Origin: Chloropicon primus
Taxonomy: Eukaryota; Chlorophyta; Chloropicophyceae; Chloropicales; Chloropicaceae
Assembly: GCA_023205875.1 (NCBI GenBank)
Contig: CP060758.1
Location: 248,001 to 312,000 of the forward strand
Length of the DNA stretch: 64,000 nt
Reading direction: 5' to 3'
Shown in pieces: positions 7,719 through 50,303 of this stretch. Position numbers and translations under genes: made by a program. The notes below the pieces were generated by a model, which did not search any database, was not told the origin of the DNA, and saw only the letters and a program-made list of their open reading frames with translations. The stretch's first letter is position 1; each line of letters begins with the position of its first letter.

Positions 7719-8344
7719 TCGTCCTGTCGTCCTGGCGCGCTCCCTTACTCTCTCCCTTGCCCTCCTCTCCCCCTCCTCCTCGTCTCTTCCGGCTCTCCCC
7801 CTTGGACGAGCAAAGCGATCGCAAGGAGTTTGGATAAGAGACTCAGAGAGGCGGTGGTGTCTAATCGCGTCGTCGAGGAGGAGCGAGCGACGAGGAAGGG
7901 AAGGGAAAGTGAGGAGAGTGGCTAGACACGGTGATACGTCTCACGATCTTTCGATCGACTCCTTGAACGAAGGATTTGGTTCACTGGAGAAGATTTGGCA
8001 ACGAGAAGAACGTTTTTCGTGTCAGATTTTGCCTCATCTGAAGGTGTGTTCGAGGAGACGCAGAGGGCGAGGAAAGCGGCGAGAGGGGAAGGAGAAGCAC
8101 CAAAGCGAAAGTTCATCTCTTCCTCTTTCGATTGGTGGGTCGCTTGACCGGTTTGGCTGGCCGGAGGCGAAGTGTTTTGGAAGGAATGAGGATGATGAGG
8201 TTGGGATGGAGAGGACCTGCTGGGTTGATGAAGGTGGGAGTGCGAGGGAGCGGAGGGCAAGGCGTGGGGACGAGGAGGTGCCCGAGGCACGAGGGGACCT
8301 TCCGATGTAACGTGTTCGACTCCGAGGCTGCGCAAGATTGTCGA
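7719..8344. promoter_or_regulatory. Divergent intergenic region with two motif copies facing the 8345 gene
   Basis: Sense copies occur at 7933-7979 (GATACGTCTCACGATCTTTC, GATCGACTCCTTG, GGATTTGG) and 8108-8157 (TCATCTCTTCCTCTTTCG, ATTGGTGGGTCGCTTGACC, GGTTTGG). Their TTTC anchors are 177 bp apart. The open frames crossing this stretch show biased, low-information translations and are judged non-coding. Confidence 0.55.
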
Positions 8345-8845
8345 ATGGAGGACGCAGAGGCGTACGAGTTCTTCGACTTGGAGAAGGCTGCTTCTGCTCC
8401 TGGTTCGGAGAGCGAGGCCGCGACGACGTCTCGTTCCGTTCACGGCAGCTTCACGGTGCAGGAGCAAGTGGCGAGGAACTTTACGAGGACGCAAAGGTAC
8501 CTTCCTCACGGGGGCCTCGGGTTGTGCCTCATCGTGTGCTGGGCCTACTTCGCGAACAGCAAGAAGCTGGCCACGCTGCAGGAGAGGAAGGCCAAGGAGA
8601 GGAGGGTCCTGGAGGAGAAGAAGGATTGGCTCAAGTCCAGGACTTTGCTGTCCATGTCGCCCCAAGACGAGCAGCAGCAGAAGGTGGATAGCACGGAGTA
8701 TCCCGAGAGTTTGATGGCGGCGGAGGACGACGGGAGTCTGGCGCGTCCGACGGATAAGGTTTACGACAGCTTCCTCAGGGACAGCAAGGCCGATCGAGTC
8801 CTCGCGCCCTCCGAAATCTTCCTGGACGGCGGGGAAGGGTCGTGA
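8345..8845 (+). CDS. Small single-pass membrane protein of unknown function, 166 aa
   Basis: I do not recognise the family. The protein has an acidic, Ser-rich N-terminal part, one hydrophobic segment (GGLGLCLIVCWAYFA, about residues 56-70), then a charged helical stretch (LQERKAKERRVLEEKKDWL) and an acidic tail. The layout resembles small organelle-membrane subunits or tethers, but nothing specific supports that. The start at 8345 was chosen because translation upstream is low-complexity and the recurrent motifs lie in that upstream part. The gene converges with VMA12, 102 bp from stop to stop. Confidence 0.6.
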   Translation: MEDAEAYEFFDLEKAASAPGSESEAATTSRSVHGSFTVQEQVARNFTRTQRYLPHGGLGLCLIVCWAYFANSKKLATLQERKAKERRVLEEKKDWLKSRTLLSMSPQDEQQQKVDSTEYPESLMAAEDDGSLARPTDKVYDSFLRDSKADRVLAPSEIFLDGGEGS

Positions 8846-15428: not shown

Positions 15429-15836
15429 GTCCTAAACCTTTTCCTCTCCCTTTCCTTGCGCCCCTCCTCTCCAAATGGTTCCTGTTCTCTCGCCGCTCTC
15501 CAAAGGTCCCTCCCAAAGGTCCCAGCTGCTCCTTGTTATGGTGTTCAGACATCAGATCAAAACACAGCACACAGAAAAGTCACGAAAGGACGGTAGGGAA
15601 ATCACAGTCAATACTGGAAGCACAAAGGCAAGTTCTCCTTTCCACTGAAAGAGAGAAACACGGAGAGGCCGGCCACAACTTACCTGTTAGTTTTCTGCAA
15701 AGGTCGTTTCACCGAGTTTGTAAGTTTCTCGGCAGGGTAATTCAGCCCTACCACGACCATTCCACCGTACATGAACGAATACTTCCGCCCACGCACGGCA
15801 GCCCGTACTAACAAACGTATGTGCAACCCTGAGGAG
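15429..15836. other. 3' flank of the Fanzor gene and upstream flank of the COMMD gene
   Basis: This 0.4-kb stretch has no supported protein gene. It holds a three-way-junction-like foldback at 15702-15758 (listed separately) and, on the minus strand at about 15678-15686, a perfect 5' splice-site consensus (CAG/GTAAGT). It may be the 3' end of a mobile unit carrying the Fanzor gene. I could not find terminal inverted repeats by eye. Confidence 0.35.
15702..15758 (-). ncRNA. Candidate structured RNA downstream of Fanzor (possible fRNA/omegaRNA scaffold)
   Basis: The 57-nt segment can fold with an outer 6-bp stem (15702-15707 with 15753-15758, GGTCGT/ACGACC) enclosing two hairpins: CCGAG/CTCGG (15712-15716 with 15728-15732) and AGGG/CCCT (15734-15737 with 15746-15749). 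It begins 78 nt after the Fanzor stop, on the Fanzor strand. TnpB and Fanzor guide RNAs are known to be encoded at or just beyond the 3' end of the nuclease gene. The stems are short and no homologue was compared, so this is a hypothesis. Confidence 0.25.
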
Positions 15837-18005
15837 TTACACACTTTTTGGTTGACGCAAGTGCTTCAGGAGGACGTTGCGTGCCCCGTTCACATCCCGA
15901 CCGCACTTGAAGCCACACTTCTGGCACTTGTACACCTCTGCTCCACCCAGGTTCTTCTTGATGTGTCCGCACCTGCCACAGGTCTTGGAGGTGTACTCCT
16001 CCGTCACGATCGCCAGCTCACTGCCGTGCAAGAGCACCTTGGAAGCCAAGAACGTTCTGAACGCATAGTGCCTCAACGTCAAGAGCGTGCGAGCCGTCTT
16101 CTTCCTGATCACTCGGCGTCTCCCGTTGTTGTTCTTCTTCGCCATGTCTTGGGACTTGAACTCCGGGAGGAGGATTGTGTCGAACCTCCTGCATAGATCG
16201 TTGGCTACCTTTTTGTGAAGCTCGTTCGTCAGACCTCGAAGTTTCTCCATGCAGGCGTATTGCTGTCTCTTCAAGTCGCGGCGGTCGAGGTAAGGGAGCT
16301 TCACCTTTGGGTCTTTGCGCTCGGAAATGATCTCATCAATCCTCCAGCAGAGGTTGAACAGCCTCGCGAAGCCTCGCTCGCCCGTGGCATACTCCCCGAC
16401 GCCTTCTTGCGGCGAGTACGACGTCTGAAAGGTCCTGACTCCCGGATCCAGGGCGACAACCTTCCGCTTGTTCTCAGGCTTCAGGGGTGGCAGGCGATCC
16501 CATGGCGTCGCGATGGGAATGTGCATGTGGAACTGCCCAAGGCGATTTCTTGTGATCTTCACGGCACCCTCGATCTTGCCCCCGGGGATCTCCTCCGTCA
16601 AGTACAGGGGCCCGCCGGCCATCTTCTCCTTGAACACCTCCAGCTTGGTCCACTTGCGTCGTTTTTTGTGCTTCGTATCATCCTTGTGCCTCGTGTTTGG
16701 CCTTTCGATCGTCTCCACGTTCTTTAACTCTCTTGCATCAATTTCAATAGTCCAAGAGCTTGGTTGCTGACGTTGACGATACTTGAGAACGAAGCGGTGC
16801 CCCTTCTTCTCGCCGCGCTCCTTCATCGCTTCCTGCTTCGCGGTGTTCGAATCCCATGCCTTGATGAGACTTCGCACGGCAGCTTGTCTGATGGCACAGG
16901 GGGTTTCCTTCAGCCAAGGATGCTTCTGATTCACAAAGGCCCCGCTAACGTAGTCCCGGTCCTTGCCCACTTGGATGCGAAAAGCTCTGCCTCCAATTTG
17001 GCTCTCGAGTCTCTTCTCTCTGGCCGCGAAAAGCTCTGCCTCCTGTTTTGTCCATGGCCGTGGAGAGCATTGGATTTCTTTCAGCTCTTTCTCCAGGCCC
17101 TCAAAGACCTCAGGGCGTCGCGGTTTGGCCGTCACAAATCTGTCCAGCAGGACGGTCCAAACCAGCGGAAAACGCTCCTTCTTGACCGCCTCCAAACACT
17201 TGTTGTATGTGAAACGCGCAGCTCCCATCCAGTTGCAAAGTGTTCTCGCCTGCTCAGGGTTCAAGCGCATCCTAAGCTTCCTCGTCCGTATCACCGTTCG
17301 CTCCGACAATAGCTTGGAGGTCTTCAGTTTCTGCTCCCTCTTCCTTTTGGCGGGCGACTGCAATGTCTCCACGGATACCACAGAATCTTCTGGAAGGTTC
17401 AAGCACGACCTCCATCCCGTCTTCGGACACTTTACCTCTTCAAGTTCTCTCTTCATCGATGAGAACCAGGTCTTCTTCACGCTGTCGTCCGCCAAGCCAC
17501 CCGGCTGCTTCCCTGCTTTCTTCCCCCTCTTGTTCTTCTTCTTCTTACCCTTCTTCTTGTTCTTCTTCTTGCCCTTCTTGCGAGGCTTCTTGCGAGGCTT
17601 GCCTGACGAGCTCGAACTCTCACCCGCAGAGGCGTCCGCCTCCGGCTGCTTCCCCTTCCGCTCCCCCCCCCGCTTCTTGCGAGGCGTGCTCGAACCCTCC
17701 TCGAAAGCAGAGGCGGGGTCGTCCAGCGGCTTCTCCTTCCGCTTCCCCCCCCGCTTCTTGCGAGGCGTGCTCGAACCCTCACCCGCAGAGGCGGGGTCGT
17801 CCGCGATAGGAAGCATGCACTTCTCGTAGAGCCACTTCAACGCCTGATTCCAGAACCGACGTAACGGCTCCGTCGTCGGAGACTCCTGCCCCGACTTCGA
17901 AGCGCCCTGAGCATGACTCTCGCCAGAGTGCGACCTCCTTGTGGAACTCGTCGAGCCACTCCCCTGCTTCTCCTTTTTCTTACGGCGCTTCCCTGATCGC
18001 GCCAT
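15837..18005 (-). CDS. Fanzor nuclease (eukaryotic TnpB homologue), 722 aa, apparently complete
   Basis: Fanzors are eukaryotic relatives of transposon TnpB; characterised members are RNA-guided DNA endonucleases. After a 180-residue basic, low-complexity N-terminus (two repeats containing SSTPRKKRGG, then a Lys tract, a likely nuclear/nucleolar signal) comes the TnpB-type domain: RKLRMRLNPEQARTLCNWMG, ARFTYNKCLEAVKKE. RuvC-I is VVALDPGVRTF (Asp520), RuvC-II LLPEFKSQD (Glu615), and RuvC-III GRDVNGARN (Asp704), so the catalytic triad is present. A zinc ribbon (Cys676, 679, 694, 697) lies before RuvC-III. The NGARN form leans toward Fanzor1, but I cannot place it firmly. The start at 18005 (MARSGKRRKKKEK) was chosen because upstream translation is UTR-like. 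There is no transposase neighbour and no clear copy of the host upstream motif. Confidence 0.9.
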   Translation of the reverse strand: MARSGKRRKKKEKQGSGSTSSTRRSHSGESHAQGASKSGQESPTTEPLRRFWNQALKWLYEKCMLPIADDPASAGEGSSTPRKKRGGKRKEKPLDDPASAFEEGSSTPRKKRGGERKGKQPEADASAGESSSSSGKPRKKPRKKGKKKNKKKGKKKKNKRGKKAGKQPGGLADDSVKKTWFSSMKRELEEVKCPKTGWRSCLNLPEDSVVSVETLQSPAKRKREQKLKTSKLLSERTVIRTRKLRMRLNPEQARTLCNWMGAARFTYNKCLEAVKKERFPLVWTVLLDRFVTAKPRRPEVFEGLEKELKEIQCSPRPWTKQEAELFAAREKRLESQIGGRAFRIQVGKDRDYVSGAFVNQKHPWLKETPCAIRQAAVRSLIKAWDSNTAKQEAMKERGEKKGHRFVLKYRQRQQPSSWTIEIDARELKNVETIERPNTRHKDDTKHKKRRKWTKLEVFKEKMAGGPLYLTEEIPGGKIEGAVKITRNRLGQFHMHIPIATPWDRLPPLKPENKRKVVALDPGVRTFQTSYSPQEGVGEYATGERGFARLFNLCWRIDEIISERKDPKVKLPYLDRRDLKRQQYACMEKLRGLTNELHKKVANDLCRRFDTILLPEFKSQDMAKKNNNGRRRVIRKKTARTLLTLRHYAFRTFLASKVLLHGSELAIVTEEYTSKTCGRCGHIKKNLGGAEVYKCQKCGFKCGRDVNGARNVLLKHLRQPKSV

Positions 18006-18544
18006 GACTGTTAGGGTTTCACTCGGCGTCCTCCTCCCTTCCTCTCGCGAGGCTAGATTTTTTACCAGTGCCTTGCCCAGCAAGTGAGAACACGAGCAAA
18101 CATTTTGTGGGTTGTCCTTTGGGTGTGACCAAACTGGTATACACTGGAATCCCACCAACAGGGGAAAACCTCCAACACTCCTGTCGGCTGGCGACGGCCG
18201 AGAGAGAGAGAGAGGGAGAGAGGCGACGACTTTGCGATCAGGGGGGCAAGGAAGGCGAGGAGGCGAGGAGGGGAGAAAAACGAGAGAAAGATCTGCTCGA
18301 GATCTTTTCAACGACACCTTACTCGACCCATTTGGTGCTCGGATTGGTCGAGGAATCGGCTCGGAGGACGGAAAGGGAAGGAGAAACCACCCGAGTGACA
18401 CGCCTTGTCGAGGACGGTGGCGGCGAGGACGGCAAGGGGAGGTTAAAGAGGAGGGTGTTGAAAGAAAGTAGACCTCGCGTGCGGGTTGCTTGCCTGGTTT
18501 CGTGGTCGGAGGTGAAGTTCGCCGTCTGTTGCGAAACGATAACG
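18006..18544. promoter_or_regulatory. Divergent region between Fanzor and RPA49
   Basis: A motif copy at 18291-18343 (ATCTGCTCGAGATCTTTTC, AACGACACCTTACTCGACC, CATTTGG) faces the plus-strand RPA49 gene. The Fanzor-proximal part (18006-18200) has no recognisable motif copy. No gene is seen. Confidence 0.5.
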
Positions 18545-39522: not shown

Positions 39523-39950
39523 CCTTACCTCTTCCTCGTCAGAGATCCATTCCTTTCATGCGACCACCCAATCGAAAGAGAAAGACACGAGGATTCCATC
39601 CATCGAGTCTTTTACCCCCTCAACCACCCGTCCTCGCCGTCACAAGGCGCTCAACTGCAGCGCTTCCCCCTGCGGCGTGGAGCGCTCAGGTGGTGATTTT
39701 GATTGCACTCAAAATGAACTGATTGCACTCGAAATGAACTGAACCCTTTTGAATTGGCGCGAGACAGAGAGGACAGAGGAAGGGCCAAGTGGGTGAGAGA
39801 AGTCCCTTGTGCGGAGGCAAGATGGAGACAAGATGGAGGAAAGGTGGGATCTTTGGAGGGATCAGGGCTCAAGGCATGTTTGATTTCAAGTAGAGCCCTT
39901 GGTGGGCTCTTTTGTGTCCATCGGAAGCCCCTTTTTTTGTGGAGGGACAG
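39523..39950. promoter_or_regulatory. Divergent promoter region, DUF819 gene and SFI1-like gene
   Basis: A short motif copy at 39565-39593 (CCACCCAATCGAAAGAGAAA, GACACGAGG) faces the minus-strand gene. A small direct repeat (GATTGCACTCAAAATGAACT, then GATTGCACTCGAAATGAACT) is at 39702-39741. No gene is seen. Confidence 0.5.
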
Positions 39951-42900
39951 ATGGCTGAGGAGGGCTGGCTCCCGAGGGAGGGAGACGTGGTGGTGCTTTG
40001 GTTGGAGAGTGAGCAGGTGGGTGTGACGGTAACGGTGGAGGAGGGCCAAGAGAAGGTTCTTCTGAAGCAATGGCGTGACATATCGGAGCTCTGCGCGGAC
40101 CCAGGGGCGCCCTTCTTCGCTTTCAAGAAGCAAGACTATGTCGGTTTCAAGTCATGTAAGACTGGAAAGTTCTTGCAGGCGAGAAGGAAGCATCCCCACA
40201 AGCTGGCAACGTACTCGAACTTCTGGGGAGTGTGGGAGCAGTTTCGGATCAAGAAGTGCTCGAGGGTCGTCTCAAGCAGGGTCAGAGGCTGGAAGAGCTC
40301 CATCCTGCTCCTTCAGCCAAGGCAACTACCCAACGCTGTCCTGTCCCTGGGTTGCTACTTTTTGACGACGAGCATGGCTCCCACCCGAGCAGCTCCGAGG
40401 TCGATCGCTGCAGGGGAGGGAATACCGGTAAAAAAAGTCGAAGCTTTGAACATATCGATGAAGCTGGTGCACAGCTTTGCGAGGAAGTGCTCCAGTAGGT
40501 TCCTGCGGAGTGCGCTGACGAGTTGGAGGGACGCGGCCACCAGGAGGAGGTTGCTGCACTCCATCTGCTCGAACATGCGGAAGCACCTTTGCAGGAGGCT
40601 TTTGATGTCCGTCCTCAAGCGATGGCGCCACAGAATTGTGAGGAAGAAGCGTCAAGATGTATTTGTAGAAAGAATGCGAGCGAAGAAGCAGAAGAAGGAC
40701 GGCAACGCTTGCTTTTCTTGGTGGCGGGAATACTCGGCCTCTAAAAGGATGAAGGGCATCCATGTTAGAAAGTTGAAGGAAATGCAAAAGAGGAGAAGAA
40801 CACGCCGGCTGCTGAAAGAATGGAAAGCGTACTCGCACGAGAACAAAAGCTGTGCAGCAAAGCAGAAAAATTCTCTGACAAAGTTCGAAGCGAACAGAAA
40901 ACGGAGAATCATTCGTGCATGGTTCTCGAGTCTGCAGCAGCACAAAGAGCAAGAGAAACACGTCCATCGAAGCATCCGAGTTCGACAAAACAGCGAACTG
41001 CGCAACATCATTTACAAGTGGAGCATCTTGACGGAACGAGAGAAATACACTAGTACTTGCAATGCGCTGGTTACAAGGATGATGAACAGGTTGTACTTGC
41101 ACCGCGTCTTTGACCACTGGTCGTATCTCGTGCAAGAGTGTGTCCAAGTGCGGCATAAGGTGCAGACATGCATTGTCAGGCTGAGCATAAGACACATGAC
41201 CGATGCGTTTGAGGCTTGGCTTTCATACACATCAGATCAGAGAGCGAGGATGCATCTGCTGAATGTGGTCACCCAACGAATGCAGAGGTTGCGTCTTACT
41301 CATTGCTTTGGCACCTGGTGGTCCAATGTGGGTTACTTGGGACAAGTACAACGTAAGCTTCAGCGATGCGTGATGCAGCTGGCCCATCGCAAACTTGTTC
41401 ACGTTTTTGAGACCTGGTTGACTTACGTGGACCAGCAACGTGCCTTGGCTTGCGCACGGGCGAAGGCCAACAGAATGGGCGACGCGAGGAGACAAGACGC
41501 GATGTACGCAAGTCTGATGATTTGGGCAGAGCGTGCCCATGCTTGGAAGATGAAGAGGTACAGGATGAAGAGGGCGGTGATGCACATGAATCGCTTGTGC
41601 CTGCACCGGACGTTTGGCAAGTGGCTGAATTACGTTCGCCGCATTTTGGTAGAGCACATGGTGCTTCACAAGGTGATGCTGCGTATGCAGAGGCTTCGCC
41701 TGAGCCATTGTTTTGGCACGTGGTTGTCCAATGTGGGTTACTTGGGACAGGTGCGGCGAAAGCTGCAGAGACGTGTGACACAGATTGCTTACCAGAAGAT
41801 TGCAGGTGCCTTTGAGGCATGGTTGACTTACGTGGACCAGCAACGTGCCTTGGCTTGCGCACGGGCGAAGGCCAACAGAATGGGTGACGCGAGGAGACAA
41901 GACGCGATGTACGCAAGTCTGATGATTTGGGCCGACCGTGCCCATGCTTGGAAGATGAAGAGGTACAGGATGAAGAGGGCGGTGATGCACATGAATCGGC
42001 TGTGCCTGCACCGCGTCTTCGACCACTGGTCGTATCTCGTGCAAGAGTGTGTCCAAGTGCGGCATAAGGTGCAGACATGCATTGTCAGGCTGAGCATAAG
42101 ACACATGACCGATGCGTTTGAGGCTTGGCTTTCATACACATCAGATCAGAGAGCGAGGATGCATCTGCTGAATGTGGTCACCCAACGAATGCAGAGGTTG
42201 CGTCTTACTCATTGCTTTGGCACCTGGTGGTCCAATGTGGGTTACTTGGGACAAGTACAACGTAAGCTTCAGCGATGCGTGATGCAGCTGGCCCATCGCA
42301 AACTTGTTCACGTTTTTGAGACCTGGTTGACTTACGTGGACCAGCAACGTGCCTTGGCTTGCGCACGGGCGAAGGCCAACAGAATGGGCGACGCGAGGAG
42401 ACAAGACGCGATGTACGCAAGTCTGATGATTTGGGCAGAGCGTGCCCATGCTTGGAAGATGAAGAGGTACAGGATGAAGAGGGCGGTGATGCACATGAAT
42501 CGCTTGTGCCTGCACCGGACGTTTGGCAAGTGGCTGAATTACGTTCGCCGCATTTTGGTAGAGCACATGGTGCTTCACAAGGTGATGCTGCGTATGCAGA
42601 GGCTTCGCCTGAGCCATTGTTTTGGCACGTGGTTGTCCAATGTGGGTTACTTGGGACAGGTGCGGCGAAAGCTGCAGAGACGTGTGACACAGATTGCTTA
42701 CCAGAAGATTGCAGGTGCCTTTGAGGCATGGTTGACTTACGTGGACCAGCAACGTGCCTTGGCTTGCGCACGGGCGAAGGCCAACAGAATGGGTGACGCG
42801 AGGAGACAAGACGCGATGTACGCAAGTCTGATGATTTGGGCCGACCGTGCCCATGCTTGGAAGATGAAGAGGTACAGGATGAAGAGGGCGGTGATGCACA

Positions 42901-45900
42901 TGAATCGGCTGTGCCTGCACCGCGTCTTCGACCACTGGTCGTATCTCGTGCAAGAGTGTGTCCAAGTGCGGCATAAGGTGCAGACATGCATTGTCAGGCT
43001 GAGCATAAGACACATGACCGATGCGTTTGAGGCTTGGCTTTCATACACATCAGATCAGAGAGCGAGGATGCATCTGCTGAATGTGGTCACCCAACGAATG
43101 CAGAGGTTGCGTCTTACTCATTGCTTTGGCACCTGGTGGTCCAATGTAGATTATTTAGGACAAGTACAACGTAAGCTTCAGCGATGCGTGATGCAGCTGG
43201 CCCATCGCAAACTTGTTCACGTTTTTGAGACCTGGTTGACTTACGTGGACCAGCAACGTGCCTTGGCTTGCGCACGGGCGAAGGCCAACAGAATGGGCGA
43301 CGCGAGGAGACAAGACGCGATGTACGCAAGTCTGATGATTTGGGCAGAGCGTGCCCATGCTTGGAAGATGAAGAGGTACAGGATGAAGAGGGCGGTGATG
43401 CACATGAATCGCTTGTGCCTGCACCGGACGTTTGGCAAGTGGCTGAATTACGTTCGCCGCATTTTGGTAGAGCACATGGTGCTTCACAAGGTGATGCTGC
43501 GTATGCAGAGGCTTCGCCTGAGCCATTGTTTTGGCACGTGGTTGTCCAATGTGGGTTACTTGGGACAGGTGCGGCGAAAGCTGCAGAGACGTGTGACACA
43601 GATTGCTTACCAGAAGATTGCAGGTGCCTTTGAGGCATGGTTGACTTACGTGGACCAGCAACGTGCCTTGGCTTGCGCACGGGCGAAGGCCAACAGAATG
43701 GGTGACGCGAGGAGACAAGACGCGATGTACGCAAGTCTGATGATTTGGGCCGACCGTGCCCATGCTTGGAAGATGAAGAGGTACAGGATGAAGAGGGCGG
43801 TGATGCACATCCACCGGCTGTACTTGCATCAGTCTTTCGGCAAGTGGTCGAATTACGTCCAGAACATCTTGGTTGAGCGCATGGTGATGCACAAGGTTAT
43901 ACTGCGGATGCAGAGGCTCCACATGAGTCAGTGCTTTGAGACTTGGTGGTCGAATGTTGATTACTTGGGTCAAGTGAGGCGGAAGCTTCAGCGATGTTTT
44001 GATCATCGACGTCATCGTAATCTCTTTCACGCCTTTGAGACATGGTTGTCTTACGTGGATGAGCAGCATGCCTTGGCGAACGCTCGATCCAAGGCGAACA
44101 GGATTGCTGATGTGCGGAGACAAGACGCGATGTACGCAAGTCTGATGGCTTGGGCAGAGCGTGCCCATGCTTGGAAGATGAAGAGGTACAGGATGAAGAG
44201 GGCGGTGATGCATATCCACCGGCTGTACTTGCATCAGTCTTTCGGCAAGTGGTCGAATTACGTCCAGAACATCTTGGTTGAGCGCATGGTGATGCACAAG
44301 GTTATACTGCGGATGCAGAGGCTCCACATGAGTCAGTGCTTTGAGACTTGGTGGTCGAATGTTGATTACTTGGGTCAAGTGAGGCGGAAGCTTCAGCGAT
44401 GCGTGATGCACATGTCCTATCGTAATCTCGTTCACGCCTTTGAGACATGGTTGTCTTACGTGGACGAGCAGCATGCCTTGGCGATCGCTCGATCCAAGGC
44501 GAACAGGATTGCTGATGTGCGGAGACAAGACGCGATGTACGCAAGTCTGATGATTTGGGCAGAGCGTGCCCATGCTTGGAAGATGAAGAGGTACAGGATG
44601 AAGAGGGCGGTGATGCATATCCACCGGCTGTACTTGCATCAGTCTTTCGGCAAGTGGTCGAATTACGTCCAGAACATCTTGGTTGAGCGCATGGTGATGC
44701 ACAAGGTTATACTGCGGATGCAGAGGCTCCACATGAGTCAGTGCTTTGAGACTTGGTGGTCGAATGTTGATTACTTGGGTCAAGTGAGGCGGAAGCTTCA
44801 GCGATGTTTTGATCATCGACGTCATCGTAATCTCGTTCACGCCTTTGAGACATGGTTGTCTTACGTGGATGAGCAGCATGCCTTGGCGAACGCTCGATCC
44901 AAGGCGAACAGGATTGCTGATGTGCGGAGACAAGACGCGATGTACGCAAGTCTGATGGCTTGGGCAGAGCGTGCCCATGCTTGGAAGATGAAGAGGTACA
45001 GGATGAAGAGGGCGGTGATGCACATCCACCGGCTGTACTTGCATCAGTCTTTCGGCAAGTGGTCGAATTACGTCCAGAACATCTTGGTTGAGCGCATGGT
45101 GATGCACAAGGTTATACTGCGGATGCAGAGGCTCCACATGAGTCAGTGCTTTGAGACTTGGTGGTCGAATGTTGATTACTTGGGTCAAGTGAGGCGGAAG
45201 CTTCAGCGATGTTTTGATCATCGACGTCATCGTAATCTCGTTCACGCCTTTGAGACATGGTTGTCTTACGTGGATGAGCAGCATGCCTTGGCGAACGCTC
45301 GATCCAAGGCGAACAGGATTGCTGATGTGCGGAGACAAGACGCGATGTACGCAAGTCTGATGGCTTGGGCAGAGCGTGCCCATGCTTGGAAGATGAAGAG
45401 GTACAGGATGAAGAGGGCGGTGATGCATATCCACCGGCTGTACTTGCATCAGTCTTTCGGCAAGTGGTCGAATTACGTCCAGAACATCTTGGTTGAGCGC
45501 ATGGTGATGCACAAGGTTATACTGCGGATGCAGAGGCTCCACATGAGTCAGTGCTTTGAGACTTGGTGGTCGAATGTTGATTACTTGGGTCAAGTGAGGC
45601 GGAAGCTTCAGCGATGCGTGATGCACATGTCCTATCGTAATCTCTTTCACGCCTTTGAGACATGGTTGTCTTACGTGGACGAGCAGCATGCCTTGGCGAT
45701 CGCTCGATCCAAGGCGAACAGGATTGCTGATGTGCGGAGACAAGACGCGATGTACGCAAGTCTGATGATTTGGGCAGAGCGTGCCCATGCTTGGAAGATG
45801 AAGAGGTACAGGATGAAGAGGGCGGTGATGCACATCCACCGGCTGTACTTGCATCAGTCTTTCGGCAAGTGGTCGAATTACGTCCAGAACATCTTGGTTG

Positions 45901-48900
45901 AGCGCATGGTGATGCACAAGGTTATACTGCGGATGCAGAGGCTCCACATGAGTCAGTGCTTTGAGACTTGGTGGTCGAATGTTGATTACTTGGGTCAAGT
46001 GAGGCGGACGCTTCAGCGATGTTTTGATCATCGACGTCATCGTAATCTCTTTCACGCCTTTGAGACATGGTTGTCTTACGTGGACGAGCAGCATGCCTTG
46101 GCGAACGCTCGATCCAAGGCGAACAGGATTGCTGATGTGCGGAGACAAGACGCGATGTACGCAAGTCTGATGATTTGGGCAGAGCGTGCCCATGCTTGGA
46201 AGATGAAGAGGTACAGGATGAAGAGGGCGGTGATGCACATCCACCGGCTGTACTTGCATCAGTCTTTCGGCAAGTGGTCGAATTACGTCCAGAACATCTT
46301 GGTTGAGCGCATGGTGATGCACAAGGTTATACTGCGGATGCAGAGGCTCCACATGAGTCAGTGCTTTGAGACTTGGTGGTCGAATGTTGATTACTTGGGT
46401 CAAGTGAGGCGGAAGCTTCAGCGATGTTTTGATCATCGACGTCATCGTAATCTCGTTCACGCCTTTGAGACATGGTTGTCTTACGTGGATGAGCAGCATG
46501 CCTTGGCGAACGCTCGATCCAAGGCGAACAGGATTGCTGATGTGCGGAGACAAGACGCGATGTACGCAAGTCTGATGATTTGGGCAGAGCGTGCCCATGC
46601 TTGGAAGATGAAGAGGTACAGGATGAAGAGGGCGGTGATGCATATCCACCGGCTGTACTTGCATCAGTCTTTCGGCAAGTGGTCGAATTACGTCCAGAAC
46701 ATCTTGGTTGAGCGCATGGTGATGCACAAGGTTATACTGCGGATGCAGAGGCTCCACATGAGTCAGTGCTTTGAGACTTGGTGGTCGAATGTTGATTACT
46801 TGGGTCAAGTGAGGCGGAAGCTTCAGCGATGCGTGATGCACATGTCCTATCGTAATCTCTTTCACGCCTTTGAGACATGGTTGTCTTACATGGATGAGCA
46901 GCGTGCCTTGGCGAACGCTCGATCCAAGGCGAACAGGATTGCTGATGTGCGGAGACAAGACGCGATGTACGCAAGTCTGATGGCTTGGGCAGAGCGTGCC
47001 CATGCTTGGAAGATGAAGAGGTACAGGATGAAGAGGGCGGTGATGCACATCCACCGGCTGTACTTGCATCAATCTTTCGGCAAGTGGTTGAATTACGTCC
47101 AGAACATCTTGGTTGAGCGCATGGTGATGCACAAGGTTATACTGCGGATGCAGAGGCTCCACATGAGTCAGTGCTTTGAGACTTGGTGGTCGAATGTTGA
47201 TCATCTGAGGCAGATGCGATGGAAAGTACAGCGATTTGTTCTTCGGTGGTCGTTGTTCTGCATGAGCTACTACTTTTGGGAATGGCAAGATTGGGTAGAA
47301 ATAAAGATGAGGAAGAAGAAGAGGTTGGAGAGGGCGTTGCTGAGTATTGAAGGGTTGAAGTTGTATCACTCGTTTGGCAAGTGGCTGAGTTATGTACACA
47401 ATCACTTGAAGAAGAAGATGCTGCTGCAGAAGATTGTTTTTAGAATGCAAAAGGTCCACGTTGCCCAAGGGTTCTACACTTGGAGGTCAAACATCCACTA
47501 TTTGCATATGATTCAGATCAGATTGCAAAGGGCTTTAACACATATCGCCTATCGCACTTTTAGAGCAGTGTTCGATGGATGGGCATCAAGAATTCTTTTG
47601 TGGCAATCGAAGAGGTACAGGGTGAGAAGAGCGGTGATGCACATTCACCGGCTGTACTTGCATCAGTCTTTCGGCAAGTGGTCGAATTACGTCCAGAACA
47701 TCTTGGTTGAGCGCATGGTGATGCACAAGGTTATACTGCGGATGCAGAGGCTCCACATGAGTCAGTGCTTTGAGACTTGGTGGTCGAATGTTGATTACTT
47801 GGGTCAAGTGAGGCGGAAGCTTCAGCGATGCGTGATGCACATGTCCTATCGTAATCTCGTTCACGCCTTTGAGACATGGTTGTCTTACGTGGACGAGCAG
47901 CATGCCTTGGCGAACGCTCGATCCAAGGCGAACAGGATTGCTGATGTGCGGAGACAAGACGCGATGTACGCAAGTCTGATGGCTTGGGCAGAGCGTGCCC
48001 ATGCTTGGAAGATGAAGAGGTACAGGATGAAGAGGGCGGTGATGCATATCCACCGGCTGTACTTGCATCAGTCTTTCGGCAAATGGCTTGGGTACGTTGG
48101 AATGGTTTCAAAGGAGAAGACTCTCCTTCACAAGGTTATACTGCGGATGCAGAGGCTGCACCTTTGTCAATGCTTTGAGACTTGGTGGTCGAATGTTGAT
48201 TACTTGGGTCAAGTGAGGCGGAAGCTGGAGCGGTGCCTGATCAGGTACACTCACCGCAGTCTCGTGCTTGCTTTTGGTTCTTGGTTGCGCTGGACGAATA
48301 TCTCAAAGGCAACAAATTGTCGATTGAAGCAAGCAGTTAGAAAGATCGAGAGGCTGAGCATGTGCCATTCTTTCCAAATGTGGCTCTCAGCTGTCGACGA
48401 AAGCTCACATGACCGTCAGCTTCTGTTGAAGGTCATTACGCGCATGCAGAGGCTCCACATGAGTCAGTGCTTTGAGACTTGGTGGTCGAATGTTGATTAC
48501 TTGGGTCAAGTGAGGCGAAAAGTACAGCGATGCGTGATGCAGATGTCCCACCACAACGTTGTTTATGCCTTTGAGACATGGATGTCTTACGTGGACGAGC
48601 AGCGTGCCTTGGTGGCCGCGAATGTGCTTGCAGAGAGTCACTTTAGGAAGTTCACAACTTCCTCTACTTTCTTGAAGTGGTGGAAGCTTGTTAGGTTCGG
48701 GAAAGCAGTGAATCTATCGCACTTGAAGACAAAGTACGACGGCGTTTTGCTATACTCTGCCTTTAGTGGCTGGTTTTTGCTGTGCAGAAAATCTGTGGGA
48801 GACAAGAACGTGGCCAAAAGATACTTATCTGTTGGTGTCTCAAGAGTAAGACTCGCTTCTTTCAAGCGATGGGTGGGCTACGTCAACTTCAAAAGAAGGG

Positions 48901-50303
48901 AGGCCACACTGAGTACCATGTTATTCTCACGCTACCAGATGCTTTTGGGTAGGAAGGGGTTCCGAGCGTGGCGCAACCACATGCTGCTGTTGAATGAAAG
49001 GCGTGGCAAGGTTCGTCATTTCATTGTGGGCTGGCAAAGTCTGAACCTGAAAAGGTGCTTCCGGTCATGGAAAATTTGTGTCGATCAGGAGCAGATGATT
49101 GCAGCACTGGACGCTCTGGTGCTGAGCGGTGCTTTTGAAAAATGGAGAATGAAAGTAGCGAATTCAAGGATTCGCTACTCTGCCATCGACAACGTGTTCT
49201 GCATGAAAAAAGCGAGCCTGGCTCATTGCTTCAGGAGCTGGGCTGCTCATGTCAGGAAGGAGAAACTTGTCCTCCAAAAGTTCGCCCTAGTTGGGAAGAC
49301 GACGATGAAAGCCTCCTTCATGAAGCACTGGAGGCAGTACACCGGGTACAAAAAGAGCAAGCGCAGCTTGAGCGAGAAGCTCATTCTCCACTACAGGTTC
49401 AGGGTGGCAACAAAGTTCTTCAAGGCCTGGGCACGACACACTGCCCTGCGAGCTGAGAGGCTGCGGATGGTGAAGACGTTCATTGGCAGGTGGCTCGGGA
49501 TGAGTTTGCAGAAGCACTTCAGTTGCTGGGCAGTCAAGGTAGCCAGGAAGAAGTATATATTGAAGCAAATCTCAATTTCCGGGAGCGAGCACGACAAAAG
49601 GATACAGCTTGGAGTCTTCCGCTACTGGAAGCAATGTACGGACCAGATCAAAAAGCACAGAAGCAAGGCCGAGGAATACATCGTTCGTAACGGCCACTCA
49701 CGCAAGAGGAAATTGCTGCACAAGCAGTTCTGTCACTGGAGGTCTTTGAAATCCATGCGACAGGACATGGAAAGGGTGCTGCAGGACCGACGTGCTTTCA
49801 TAGCGATCTCGAGAGCGTTCAAGCACTGGAGAAGCGTGCATGCTCAGAAGGTCAAGTTGTCACAAATGATGAGACAAGAGCACGACGTGAAAGTGAGGGG
49901 CAATGTATTCAATTCCTGGCACAAAACCACACTGCAGAAGATCGCCTTCAGAAAGTACAGGCAAAAGCAGAAGTGGTTCCTCCGATGGAAGTTTGAGGCC
50001 ACGCTGAAAGAGAGCTTCTACGAGGAGAACGTCGTCTTGGAGCAGGCGAATCTTGGTTTGGATGACAGCGCTGGCAATGCGTTCTACCCTGACGTTCTGA
50101 GAAGTTCCTACACCAAAGCGATCGAAGACGTGGGCCTGCTCGAGGCCAAAATTGCGTCTTTCTCAGACGAAAGACAATCTTTCATGGCCAGCCCTCCGAA
50201 GTTCGAGGACTCTTTGCTGGACGACACAGAAGCGATCCTCAACGAGTTGGACAGCCAAAGCTCAAAGATAAGGAGGCGGCTGGCGGAAATGAAAACACCT
50301 TAG
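39951..50303 (+). CDS. Giant SFI1-like centrin-binding repeat protein, about 3,450 aa, single exon
   Basis: Sfi1-type proteins are long continuous helices with Trp-containing repeats of about 33 residues that each bind a centrin, building centrosome, basal-body or contractile fibres. Here about residues 170-3,350 are built of such units (SFGKWSNYV, CFETWWSNV, AFETWLSYV, YASLMAWAERA and variants: hydrophobic, F/L-x-x-W, basic spacing), roughly 95-100 of them. The N-terminal 145 residues (GDVVVLWLESEQVGVTVTVE, VGFKSCKTGKFLQARRK) look like a small beta domain, perhaps fascin/trefoil-like. The C-terminus is acidic and coiled. Three 909-bp and more than eight 405-bp near-identical tandem repeats occupy the middle. 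The start is MAEEGWLP; an upstream ATG at 39912 is possible. The frame is uninterrupted for 10.35 kb. Confidence 0.85.
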   Translation: MAEEGWLPREGDVVVLWLESEQVGVTVTVEEGQEKVLLKQWRDISELCADPGAPFFAFKKQDYVGFKSCKTGKFLQARRKHPHKLATYSNFWGVWEQFRIKKCSRVVSSRVRGWKSSILLLQPRQLPNAVLSLGCYFLTTSMAPTRAAPRSIAAGEGIPVKKVEALNISMKLVHSFARKCSSRFLRSALTSWRDAATRRRLLHSICSNMRKHLCRRLLMSVLKRWRHRIVRKKRQDVFVERMRAKKQKKDGNACFSWWREYSASKRMKGIHVRKLKEMQKRRRTRRLLKEWKAYSHENKSCAAKQKNSLTKFEANRKRRIIRAWFSSLQQHKEQEKHVHRSIRVRQNSELRNIIYKWSILTEREKYTSTCNALVTRMMNRLYLHRVFDHWSYLVQECVQVRHKVQTCIVRLSIRHMTDAFEAWLSYTSDQRARMHLLNVVTQRMQRLRLTHCFGTWWSNVGYLGQVQRKLQRCVMQLAHRKLVHVFETWLTYVDQQRALACARAKANRMGDARRQDAMYASLMIWAERAHAWKMKRYRMKRAVMHMNRLCLHRTFGKWLNYVRRILVEHMVLHKVMLRMQRLRLSHCFGTWLSNVGYLGQVRRKLQRRVTQIAYQKIAGAFEAWLTYVDQQRALACARAKANRMGDARRQDAMYASLMIWADRAHAWKMKRYRMKRAVMHMNRLCLHRVFDHWSYLVQECVQVRHKVQTCIVRLSIRHMTDAFEAWLSYTSDQRARMHLLNVVTQRMQRLRLTHCFGTWWSNVGYLGQVQRKLQRCVMQLAHRKLVHVFETWLTYVDQQRALACARAKANRMGDARRQDAMYASLMIWAERAHAWKMKRYRMKRAVMHMNRLCLHRTFGKWLNYVRRILVEHMVLHKVMLRMQRLRLSHCFGTWLSNVGYLGQVRRKLQRRVTQIAYQKIAGAFEAWLTYVDQQRALACARAKANRMGDARRQDAMYASLMIWADRAHAWKMKRYRMKRAVMHMNRLCLHRVFDHWSYLVQECVQVRHKVQTCIVRLSIRHMTDAFEAWLSYTSDQRARMHLLNVVTQRMQRLRLTHCFGTWWSNVDYLGQVQRKLQRCVMQLAHRKLVHVFETWLTYVDQQRALACARAKANRMGDARRQDAMYASLMIWAERAHAWKMKRYRMKRAVMHMNRLCLHRTFGKWLNYVRRILVEHMVLHKVMLRMQRLRLSHCFGTWLSNVGYLGQVRRKLQRRVTQIAYQKIAGAFEAWLTYVDQQRALACARAKANRMGDARRQDAMYASLMIWADRAHAWKMKRYRMKRAVMHIHRLYLHQSFGKWSNYVQNILVERMVMHKVILRMQRLHMSQCFETWWSNVDYLGQVRRKLQRCFDHRRHRNLFHAFETWLSYVDEQHALANARSKANRIADVRRQDAMYASLMAWAERAHAWKMKRYRMKRAVMHIHRLYLHQSFGKWSNYVQNILVERMVMHKVILRMQRLHMSQCFETWWSNVDYLGQVRRKLQRCVMHMSYRNLVHAFETWLSYVDEQHALAIARSKANRIADVRRQDAMYASLMIWAERAHAWKMKRYRMKRAVMHIHRLYLHQSFGKWSNYVQNILVERMVMHKVILRMQRLHMSQCFETWWSNVDYLGQVRRKLQRCFDHRRHRNLVHAFETWLSYVDEQHALANARSKANRIADVRRQDAMYASLMAWAERAHAWKMKRYRMKRAVMHIHRLYLHQSFGKWSNYVQNILVERMVMHKVILRMQRLHMSQCFETWWSNVDYLGQVRRKLQRCFDHRRHRNLVHAFETWLSYVDEQHALANARSKANRIADVRRQDAMYASLMAWAERAHAWKMKRYRMKRAVMHIHRLYLHQSFGKWSNYVQNILVERMVMHKVILRMQRLHMSQCFETWWSNVDYLGQVRRKLQRCVMHMSYRNLFHAFETWLSYVDEQHALAIARSKANRIADVRRQDAMYASLMIWAERAHAWKMKRYRMKRAVMHIHRLYLHQSFGKWSNYVQNILVERMVMHKVILRMQRLHMSQCFETWWSNVDYLGQVRRTLQRCFDHRRHRNLFHAFETWLSYVDEQHALANARSKANRIADVRRQDAMYASLMIWAERAHAWKMKRYRMKRAVMHIHRLYLHQSFGKWSNYVQNILVERMVMHKVILRMQRLHMSQCFETWWSNVDYLGQVRRKLQRCFDHRRHRNLVHAFETWLSYVDEQHALANARSKANRIADVRRQDAMYASLMIWAERAHAWKMKRYRMKRAVMHIHRLYLHQSFGKWSNYVQNILVERMVMHKVILRMQRLHMSQCFETWWSNVDYLGQVRRKLQRCVMHMSYRNLFHAFETWLSYMDEQRALANARSKANRIADVRRQDAMYASLMAWAERAHAWKMKRYRMKRAVMHIHRLYLHQSFGKWLNYVQNILVERMVMHKVILRMQRLHMSQCFETWWSNVDHLRQMRWKVQRFVLRWSLFCMSYYFWEWQDWVEIKMRKKKRLERALLSIEGLKLYHSFGKWLSYVHNHLKKKMLLQKIVFRMQKVHVAQGFYTWRSNIHYLHMIQIRLQRALTHIAYRTFRAVFDGWASRILLWQSKRYRVRRAVMHIHRLYLHQSFGKWSNYVQNILVERMVMHKVILRMQRLHMSQCFETWWSNVDYLGQVRRKLQRCVMHMSYRNLVHAFETWLSYVDEQHALANARSKANRIADVRRQDAMYASLMAWAERAHAWKMKRYRMKRAVMHIHRLYLHQSFGKWLGYVGMVSKEKTLLHKVILRMQRLHLCQCFETWWSNVDYLGQVRRKLERCLIRYTHRSLVLAFGSWLRWTNISKATNCRLKQAVRKIERLSMCHSFQMWLSAVDESSHDRQLLLKVITRMQRLHMSQCFETWWSNVDYLGQVRRKVQRCVMQMSHHNVVYAFETWMSYVDEQRALVAANVLAESHFRKFTTSSTFLKWWKLVRFGKAVNLSHLKTKYDGVLLYSAFSGWFLLCRKSVGDKNVAKRYLSVGVSRVRLASFKRWVGYVNFKRREATLSTMLFSRYQMLLGRKGFRAWRNHMLLLNERRGKVRHFIVGWQSLNLKRCFRSWKICVDQEQMIAALDALVLSGAFEKWRMKVANSRIRYSAIDNVFCMKKASLAHCFRSWAAHVRKEKLVLQKFALVGKTTMKASFMKHWRQYTGYKKSKRSLSEKLILHYRFRVATKFFKAWARHTALRAERLRMVKTFIGRWLGMSLQKHFSCWAVKVARKKYILKQISISGSEHDKRIQLGVFRYWKQCTDQIKKHRSKAEEYIVRNGHSRKRKLLHKQFCHWRSLKSMRQDMERVLQDRRAFIAISRAFKHWRSVHAQKVKLSQMMRQEHDVKVRGNVFNSWHKTTLQKIAFRKYRQKQKWFLRWKFEATLKESFYEENVVLEQANLGLDDSAGNAFYPDVLRSSYTKAIEDVGLLEAKIASFSDERQSFMASPPKFEDSLLDDTEAILNELDSQSSKIRRRLAEMKTP
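41095..43810 (+). repeat. Three tandem 909-bp coding units in the SFI1-like gene
   Basis: Units begin near 41095, 42004 and 42913. Each encodes 303 residues (nine Trp repeats). Copies are nearly identical, including silent sites, apart from the first boundary and a small patch at about 43147-43158 in unit 3 where the GGTTACTTGGGACAAG of the others reads as a Val-Asp-Tyr variant. Confidence 0.9.
43807..47197 (+). repeat. Eight tandem 405-bp coding units plus a partial ninth
   Basis: Units start near 43807, 44212, 44617, 45022, 45427, 45832, 46237, 46642, with a partial at 47047. Each encodes 135 residues (four Trp repeats). A displaced copy follows at 47640-48080, after about 430 bp of diverged repeat. 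Confidence 0.92.

Follow-up and report, generated by a model that had tools for sequence, protein, structure and literature searches.

Positions 15837-18005 of a 64,000-nucleotide stretch of the Chloropicon primus genome (contig CP060758.1; hereafter the window) contain an uninterrupted frame for a 722-residue Fanzor-type protein, encoded on the minus strand with its ATG at 18005 and its stop codon ending at 15837. The question raised by this locus is whether the gene belongs to the host or to a mobile element. A preliminary description, made from the letters of the window, had presented an intact-looking TnpB-like gene as a single copy among housekeeping genes, either passively mobile or domesticated. 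The frame and its family assignment were borne out by the present analysis; the copy number was not. In all likelihood, the gene is one copy of a non-autonomous cut-and-paste transposon of C. primus that carries a captured, IS607-derived Fanzor2 (the 'Fanzor2*' family).

The gene and the element that carries it

The genome searched comprised 17,584,162 bases in 20 contigs (C1, 1,855,637 bases; C20, 417,210 bases). A DNA search returned 30 dispersed long copies of an element of ~2.6 kb, the other 29 being 95-98% alike to the window copy. A genome search with the PF07282 profile gave matches at 43 places; sorted manually, these comprised the 30 long elements together with 9 fragments that belong to this family and 4 members of a second one. 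Twenty-five of the long copies (L017-L036 and L050-L054) were analysed whole; frames of 695-746 amino acids with an intact catalytic triad were observed in 19 of these, and the remaining 6 were without such a frame. Most copies have sharp common ends, TGTTGGAGG...CATAACA, and the inverted ends are short and degenerate. When four shorter, Fanzor-less elements with the same ends (carriers, L046-L049) were included, both ends were recovered by pattern in 18 of 29 sequences, and 15 of these 18 are flanked by an exact target-site duplication (TSD), of 5 bp in 14 cases and 11 bp in L034. The family has the TSDs and inverted ends of cut-and-paste type that distinguish Fanzor2*, in which a eukaryotic transposon other than IS607 has captured the Fanzor2 gene. 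In the window, the element is laid out as follows.

15534-18177, minus strand: whole transposon copy, 2644 bp, 5' TGTTGGAGG ... 3' CACCATAACA, delimited by the copies' common ends and the TSD
18178-18182, minus strand: TSD AGGAG adjoining the 5' end (the same 5-mer flanks both ends)
15529-15533, minus strand: TSD AGGAG adjoining the 3' end (the same 5-mer flanks both ends)
18069-18177, minus strand: 5' carrier module, common to the four short Fanzor-less elements
15534-15664, minus strand: 3' carrier module, common to Fanzor-less elements, from the carrier matches

The four carriers share with the window element the first 73-109 nucleotides (nt) and, in the 3' part, a stretch of 60-131 nt, with other sequence between. 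Their 5' modules match element positions 1-108/109 (L046, L047 and L049) or 1-73 (L048) at 90-99%, and their 3' modules match positions 2514-2644 (L046, 96%), 2514-2609 (L047), 2514-2588 (L048) and 2585-2644 (L049); the 3' terminus is missing in two of the four.

The neighbours of the gene in the window include TRAPPC13, RNA polymerase I A49, ALG11, RCC1 repeats and CobW (Pfam match in 5 of 6 selected open reading frames), in agreement with the housekeeping surroundings described previously, and no common gene pattern was seen around the insertions across 20 loci. A position amid housekeeping genes would suit a single-copy, domesticated host gene, yet this reading is refuted by the 30 long copies and their target duplications, and 6 of 25 copies have no full frame, such that it retains virtually no probability. 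Of the two alternatives offered at the outset, passive mobility, at high copy number, is therefore the one that stands.

Pfam matches to the TNB domain (PF07282, 64.6 bits) and to HTH_OrfB (30.4 bits) place the 722-residue protein in the TnpB family. Conservation was assessed in an alignment of the window protein with 21 relatives picked among 120 listed of 1081 found, and the fractions of 22 given below refer to these sequences.

15837-18005, minus strand: Fanzor2-type protein, 722 residues, from Pfam matches and alignment (GTCATGGCGCGA context in 25/25 aligned copies)
17466-18005, minus strand: Lys-rich leader (residues 1-180) of predicted disorder, containing an 81-bp internal duplication (17626-17780)
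17178-17291, minus strand: HTH_OrfB_IS605 domain, residues 239-276 (PF12323)
16446-16448, minus strand: putative catalytic Asp520 in the LDPG motif (invariant, 22/22)
16161-16163, minus strand: Glu615, the catalytic candidate of the preliminary description, in a non-conserved column
15999-16001, minus strand: putative catalytic Glu669, alternative position, separated by 6 residues from the first zinc-ribbon Cys (invariant, 22/22)
15915-15980, minus strand: four-Cys zinc ribbon, C676, C679, C694 and C697 (invariant, 22/22)
15894-15896, minus strand: putative catalytic Asp704 (invariant, 22/22)

The DPG of RuvC-I (D520-P521-G522) is invariant in all 22 sequences. Glu669 lies seven positions before C676 and fits the alternative-Glu position of Fanzor, whereas the canonical column, 615, holds Glu in only 8 of 22 (E 8, V 3, S 3, A 2, I 2, K 2, R 1, T 1). 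Passages of a published survey give the Fanzor fingerprint as DPG together with a glutamate that precedes the zinc finger by six residues (PMC10711439). Given that residue 669 is invariant, that column 615 is variable and that this fingerprint fits, the catalytic triad is most plausibly D520-E669-D704, the role of E669 being deduced from conservation and the fingerprint. The preliminary description had named D520, E615 and D704, and had held that an acidic residue off the catalytic position would speak against it; taken literally, this applies to Glu615, while Asp520, Asp704 and the four cysteines stand and the triad D520-E669-D704 is intact in 19/19 intact copies. The Lys-rich leader of ~180 residues with its own duplication was also seen as described: it contains 21% Lys and 9% Arg, and its repeat, at residues 69 and 95, corresponds to 1.9 copies of the 81-bp DNA unit with 87% matches. 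Predicted disorder (predicted local distance difference test score < 50) covers residues 1-47 and 70-181. The predicted structure of the window protein is compatible with Fanzor2 and TnpB folds, in a list of fold relatives (VIA-align) that may lack folds that Foldseek missed. A place closer to IS607 TnpB and Fanzor2 than to Fanzor1 is suggested by the presence of HTH_OrfB, by the first solved relative, a mimivirus Fanzor2, and by relatives that adjoin serine recombinase genes in 5/5 loci tested (7 loci found).

Several observations weigh against the transposon account. By the pattern used, at least one intact end is missing in 11 of the 29 sequences, and no exact TSD flanks 3 of the 18 two-ended ones. 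No further elements with this 5' end were found genome-wide and no transposase was identified; the 5'-end pattern has 28 exact matches (24 Fanzor copies and 4 carriers), and its 5 one-mismatch sites are within the control of 10. The rve integrase profile also gave no genome match, its controls responding in 6/14. In addition, pairwise comparison of the 19 intact copies gives a ratio of nonsynonymous to synonymous change that is only moderately below 1, at 0.65 for the whole frame and 0.55 for the core; it rises to 0.88 in the leader and to 1.79 in the RuvC and zinc-ribbon part, the last on a synonymous difference (pS) of 0.004, that is, on very few synonymous changes. These ratios, which are biased by the selection of intact copies, support the view that purifying selection on the sequence would be weak at most.

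TG...CA ends with a 5-bp duplication are typical for a retroviral-type integrase, and the present element, with its ends TGTTGG...AACA and 5-bp TSD, could on these grounds be taken for a remnant resembling a solo long terminal repeat (LTR). This is very improbable given the absence of rve from the genome. The RVT_2 profile, like that of Plavaka transposases, was silent genome-wide with controls that were silent too and is therefore uninformative. An LTR-retrotransposon origin was rejected since the rve search was empty with working controls. The serine recombinase TnpA profile (PF00239) gave four genome matches, none inside a long element and the nearest ~2.9 kb from a fragment on C16. The four places of the serine recombinase family (C2:316320, C3:1404945, C9:638220 and C16:68745, L062) have equal, weak scores of 28.8 bits and frames of 375-1006 amino acids, and possibly represent a dispersed recombinase family.

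For the non-autonomous Fanzor2 transposon, a mechanism can be proposed in which the basic leader would carry the protein into the nucleus and the protein would bind a guide RNA processed from the 3' end of the transcript that encodes it, with 15684-15836 as the scaffold. It would then cleave DNA matching the sequence after the scaffold, next to a short motif. For its movement the element itself would depend on a transposase from another source, or would have depended on one since lost.

The internal right end and the hypervariable tract

Three features follow the stop codon within the element.

15684-15836, minus strand: presumed guide-RNA scaffold up to the internal right end, ...GCAGAAAACTAACAG, from conservation, fragment ends and a predicted fold with no shuffle control
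15669-15683, minus strand: 15 conserved nt immediately 3' of the internal right end (GTAAGTTGTGGCCGG), where a guide or a 5' splice site would lie
15645-15668, minus strand: hypervariable tract, distinct among copies

Over the ~150 nt 3' of the stop codon, six of eight 20-nt windows (element positions 2340-2500) are identical in 25/25 copies. The Fanzor part finishes at an IS607-like internal right end, ...ACTAACAG|G. In seven 5'-truncated fragments the matches stop at most 4 nt from this point, and the DNA beyond it is unrelated in 4/4 fragments inspected (L040, L041, L042 and L044). By analogy with IS607 elements, the internal right end may be an ancestral IS607-type right end that now lies within the carrier. 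Different, shorter hairpin regions occupy the scaffold stretch in L040-L042, and therefore more than one type of guide RNA seems to have existed. Rfam 15 gave no credible match over 15480-16150, nor in four fragment loci, and the alignment of element with fragment scaffolds is too gapped for compensatory base pairs to be counted, so none is claimed. Among the fragments, L044 (C3:455267-455417) is ~150 bp long, matches the scaffold alone and has its own downstream sequence; it is possibly a stand-alone guide RNA. Two equal-scoring 3' fragments of the Fanzor family, C16:60975-61372 (L040) and C16:65462-65859, lie on the same strand 4.5 kb apart.

The 15-nt lead after the internal right end has the consensus GTAAGT[T/A]G[T/G]GGCCGG. 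With the preceding G it has 28 exact genome matches, all at long elements, and variants with one extra nucleotide are present in L031 and L052. Outside the elements, GGTAAGTWGKGGCCGG has no exact match (28/28 at long elements), 2 one-mismatch and 16 two-mismatch sites, with a control of 16.

By contrast with this conserved lead, the adjacent tract varies from copy to copy. Tract and lead together are distinct in 25/25 copies, and the tract alone in 24/25, compared with 1 and 5 variants in the adjoining 20-nt windows. The span from GTAAGT to CAG is 24-63 nt, a difference in total length of up to 39 nt. The tracts form 11 clusters at a tolerance of 2 nt, 7 at 3 nt and 5 at 4 nt; none of 123 control windows exceeds 4 clusters at the 2-nt tolerance, and their median is 1. 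Tract similarity is uncorrelated with relatedness elsewhere (rho 0.06, p 0.33); for example, L021 and L024 are 99.4% alike elsewhere and 14 edits apart in the tract. Among 86 CAG sites on both element strands, the one at this position has 15 different lengths 15-24 nt away, the runner-up having 4. The 100-nt bin that holds the tract shows 18 gap patterns versus at most 7 elsewhere, including 4-5 in the bins with the 81-bp duplication. Carriers L046-L048 are alike at the corresponding place. When two sites of single-nucleotide polymorphism (SNP) are ignored, agreement with the longest copy, L034, extends over the first 15-21 nt in 22/24 copies; L031 and L052 are out of register with L034 through their extra nucleotide. 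In most comparisons with L034 the junctions have arbitrary right ends and 1-6 filler nt, and a 12-nt repeat, CCGTGTTTCTCT, is found within the tract. A separate 3' piece of the element, L043 (C1:71431-71565), has its 5' breakpoint at the hypervariable tract. A limited literature search on self-cutting or an intron at this site found no earlier description in which an internal right end precedes a tract specific to each copy, and the tract looks new.

Outside the tract the copies resemble mosaics. In a set of 24 copies, common SNPs form 3240 pairs, of which 2668 show all four combinations, and on one side of the tract mean r2 drops from 0.57 for pairs under 50 bp apart to 0.09 for those 150-400 bp apart. 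The RuvC half has a tenth of the synonymous diversity of the REC/WED part (0.0041 against 0.0405). Taken together, these data suggest ectopic conversion among copies, a pattern that Illumina polishing of repeats could mimic. Linkage disequilibrium across the tract is lower than elsewhere, a comparison that involves few pairs (2 under 50 bp) and is not used as proof.

A CAG is also present within 8 nt before the element in 16/25 left flanks, against 2.6 expected (p 1.6e-10, uncorrected for 64 trinucleotides and several windows); the runner-up is ACA (11, p 2e-7). In the right flank CTG is outside the six best trinucleotides, of which TAA is first (4/19, p 0.0004). This insertion motif, noticed post hoc, may reflect either a transposase preference or a Fanzor adjacent motif. 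The latter is weakened because 2/4 Fanzor-less carriers have the CAG too and its spacing to the insertion is 0-4 nt, and a plain transposase preference is as good an explanation.

Origin of the tract

The explanation ranked first, to which about an even chance is assigned, is that the nuclease plays no part and that the tract is either an unstable repeat or the unconstrained inside of a very small intron. CAG|GTAAGT ... TTTCAG|T presumably constitutes near-perfect splice sites, kept while the inside drifts; splicing would join CAG to TGGAAAGG. Both splice-like ends, from GTAAGT to CAG, are kept in 25/25 copies. GTAAGT is also present in 2/4 carriers (L046 and L047) and a TTTCAG acceptor in three (L046-L048), farther apart, and an ancestral intron is therefore plausible. 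The 12-nt repeat would suit instability, and the first 15 nt, which are never lost, are unexplained by simple end joining. Against this, the lengths fall into 11 residues modulo 12, such that unit slippage alone is insufficient, and 24 nt is very short when compared with the mean intron of 152 bp stated in a section of PMC12301720. Moreover, variability is far lower in other parts of the element, and 14 edits separate the otherwise near-identical L021 and L024.

A more tentative proposal, judged less probable than the intron or repeat, is that Fanzor cuts its own family in nature, the copy-specific tracts being end-joining scars. Capture of an IS607-type Fanzor2 would have made the right end internal, so that in every copy the guide would be read from the element itself, and the CAG (or AGG) directly before the guide would render each copy a target. 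Breaks 15-21 nt downstream would be mended by end joining, leaving a scar that differs from copy to copy, and those repaired from sister copies would shuffle the family. The tract may record such self-directed cutting because its edges match published cut distances for Fanzor (as given in PMC10432273: NlovFz2 after nt 19; MmeFz2 17-18 and 9-14; SpuFz1 16-17 and 20-21; GtFz1 14-17) and for the IS607 TnpB of ISFba1 (16 and 22 nt in the relevant passage of PMC11061315). The position, the arbitrary right ends, the 1-6 filler nt and the lack of unit slippage also fit self-cutting. The constancy of the left 15 nt counts against it, since end joining is expected to resect both sides.

It is unlikely that an assembly artefact underlies part of the tract variation and of the mosaic. 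Passages of PMC12301720 describe Nanopore assembly, Nanopolish and four Pilon rounds with Illumina reads, followed by curation by eye, and ambiguous mapping of short reads in repeats could yield mosaics and small indels. Polishing would rather homogenise the copies, and both the 39-nt length range and the excess of tract clusters over all 123 control windows argue against such an origin.

Other loci and known systems

A second multi-copy Fanzor-like family is represented by L037:2716-4797, L045:755-2818, L038 and L039 (C5, C2 and C13), with copies 96-98% alike. Frames of 687-693 amino acids are present in 2/4 copies, the TNB match is 30 bits, and DPG and alternative-Glu motifs were recognised by eye; the only homologue among 8000 scored candidates is a C. 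primus protein. In L038, stretches of ~250 bp (2357-2617 and 8183-8428, reverse-complement coordinates) are inverted around ~5.6 kb that hold the second-family copy, and are possibly long inverted ends of a larger element. Elsewhere in the window, positions 39912-50303 contain a 3463-codon open frame on the plus strand; G+C content at 40-50 kb is 48-54% per kb, below most surroundings.

Cleavage of DNA in vitro and editing of human cells have been shown for Fanzors (PMC10432273). If the self-cutting proposal is true, indels at the predicted cut distance would make native Fanzor activity directly testable in a small alga for which assembled genomes of two strains exist, and the CAG insertion motif provides a concrete adjacent-motif prediction.

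The family itself is not new, since it was published in 2019 and 2023. The first C. primus genome was reported to encode 25 proteins similar to IS605 transposases (Lemieux 2019, PMC6731263). In 2023, C. primus Fanzor2 was described as 'Fanzor2*', carried by cut-and-paste elements that have TSDs and degenerate inverted ends (passages of PMC10711439), and a preprint cites a 2023 paper for Fanzors in C. primus. The window family is very probably this published family, matched by description (species, Fanzor2 protein, TSDs and degenerate inverted ends) and not by sequence. The gene is thus a further copy of a known family, and the claim originally made for it is ordinary. The two accounts differ in that the published one, in the same passages, places an inverted end and TSD in the predicted reRNA scaffold; its Results on transposon curation mention no internal right end with a copy-specific tract.

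Among solved structures, the mimivirus Fanzor2 L79 (PDB 9b0l) is the nearest in sequence and ties for the nearest in fold; it also has a Lys-rich, weakly aligned N-terminal stretch. Identity is ~20% over the fold, and the leader of L79 is shorter than that of the window protein. Mimivirus Fanzor2s are listed as IS607-type (PMC3627910). The presumed ancestor, IS607 TnpB as in ISFba1 and ISXfa1, has the same order of a right end and then a guide, and the mostly 16-nt (non-target strand) and 22-nt (target strand) cuts of ISFba1, in the passage cited above, are near the tract edges observed here. By contrast, IS607 has its own TnpA, of which none was seen in the window element, and in C. primus the right end lies inside another transposon. 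Finally, MmeFz2 and NlovFz2 (PMC10432273) are likewise Fanzor2 proteins; their adjacent motifs TAG and CCG and their cuts 9-19 nt away resemble the CAG and 15-21 nt found here. They differ from the window protein in that their activity has been tested biochemically.
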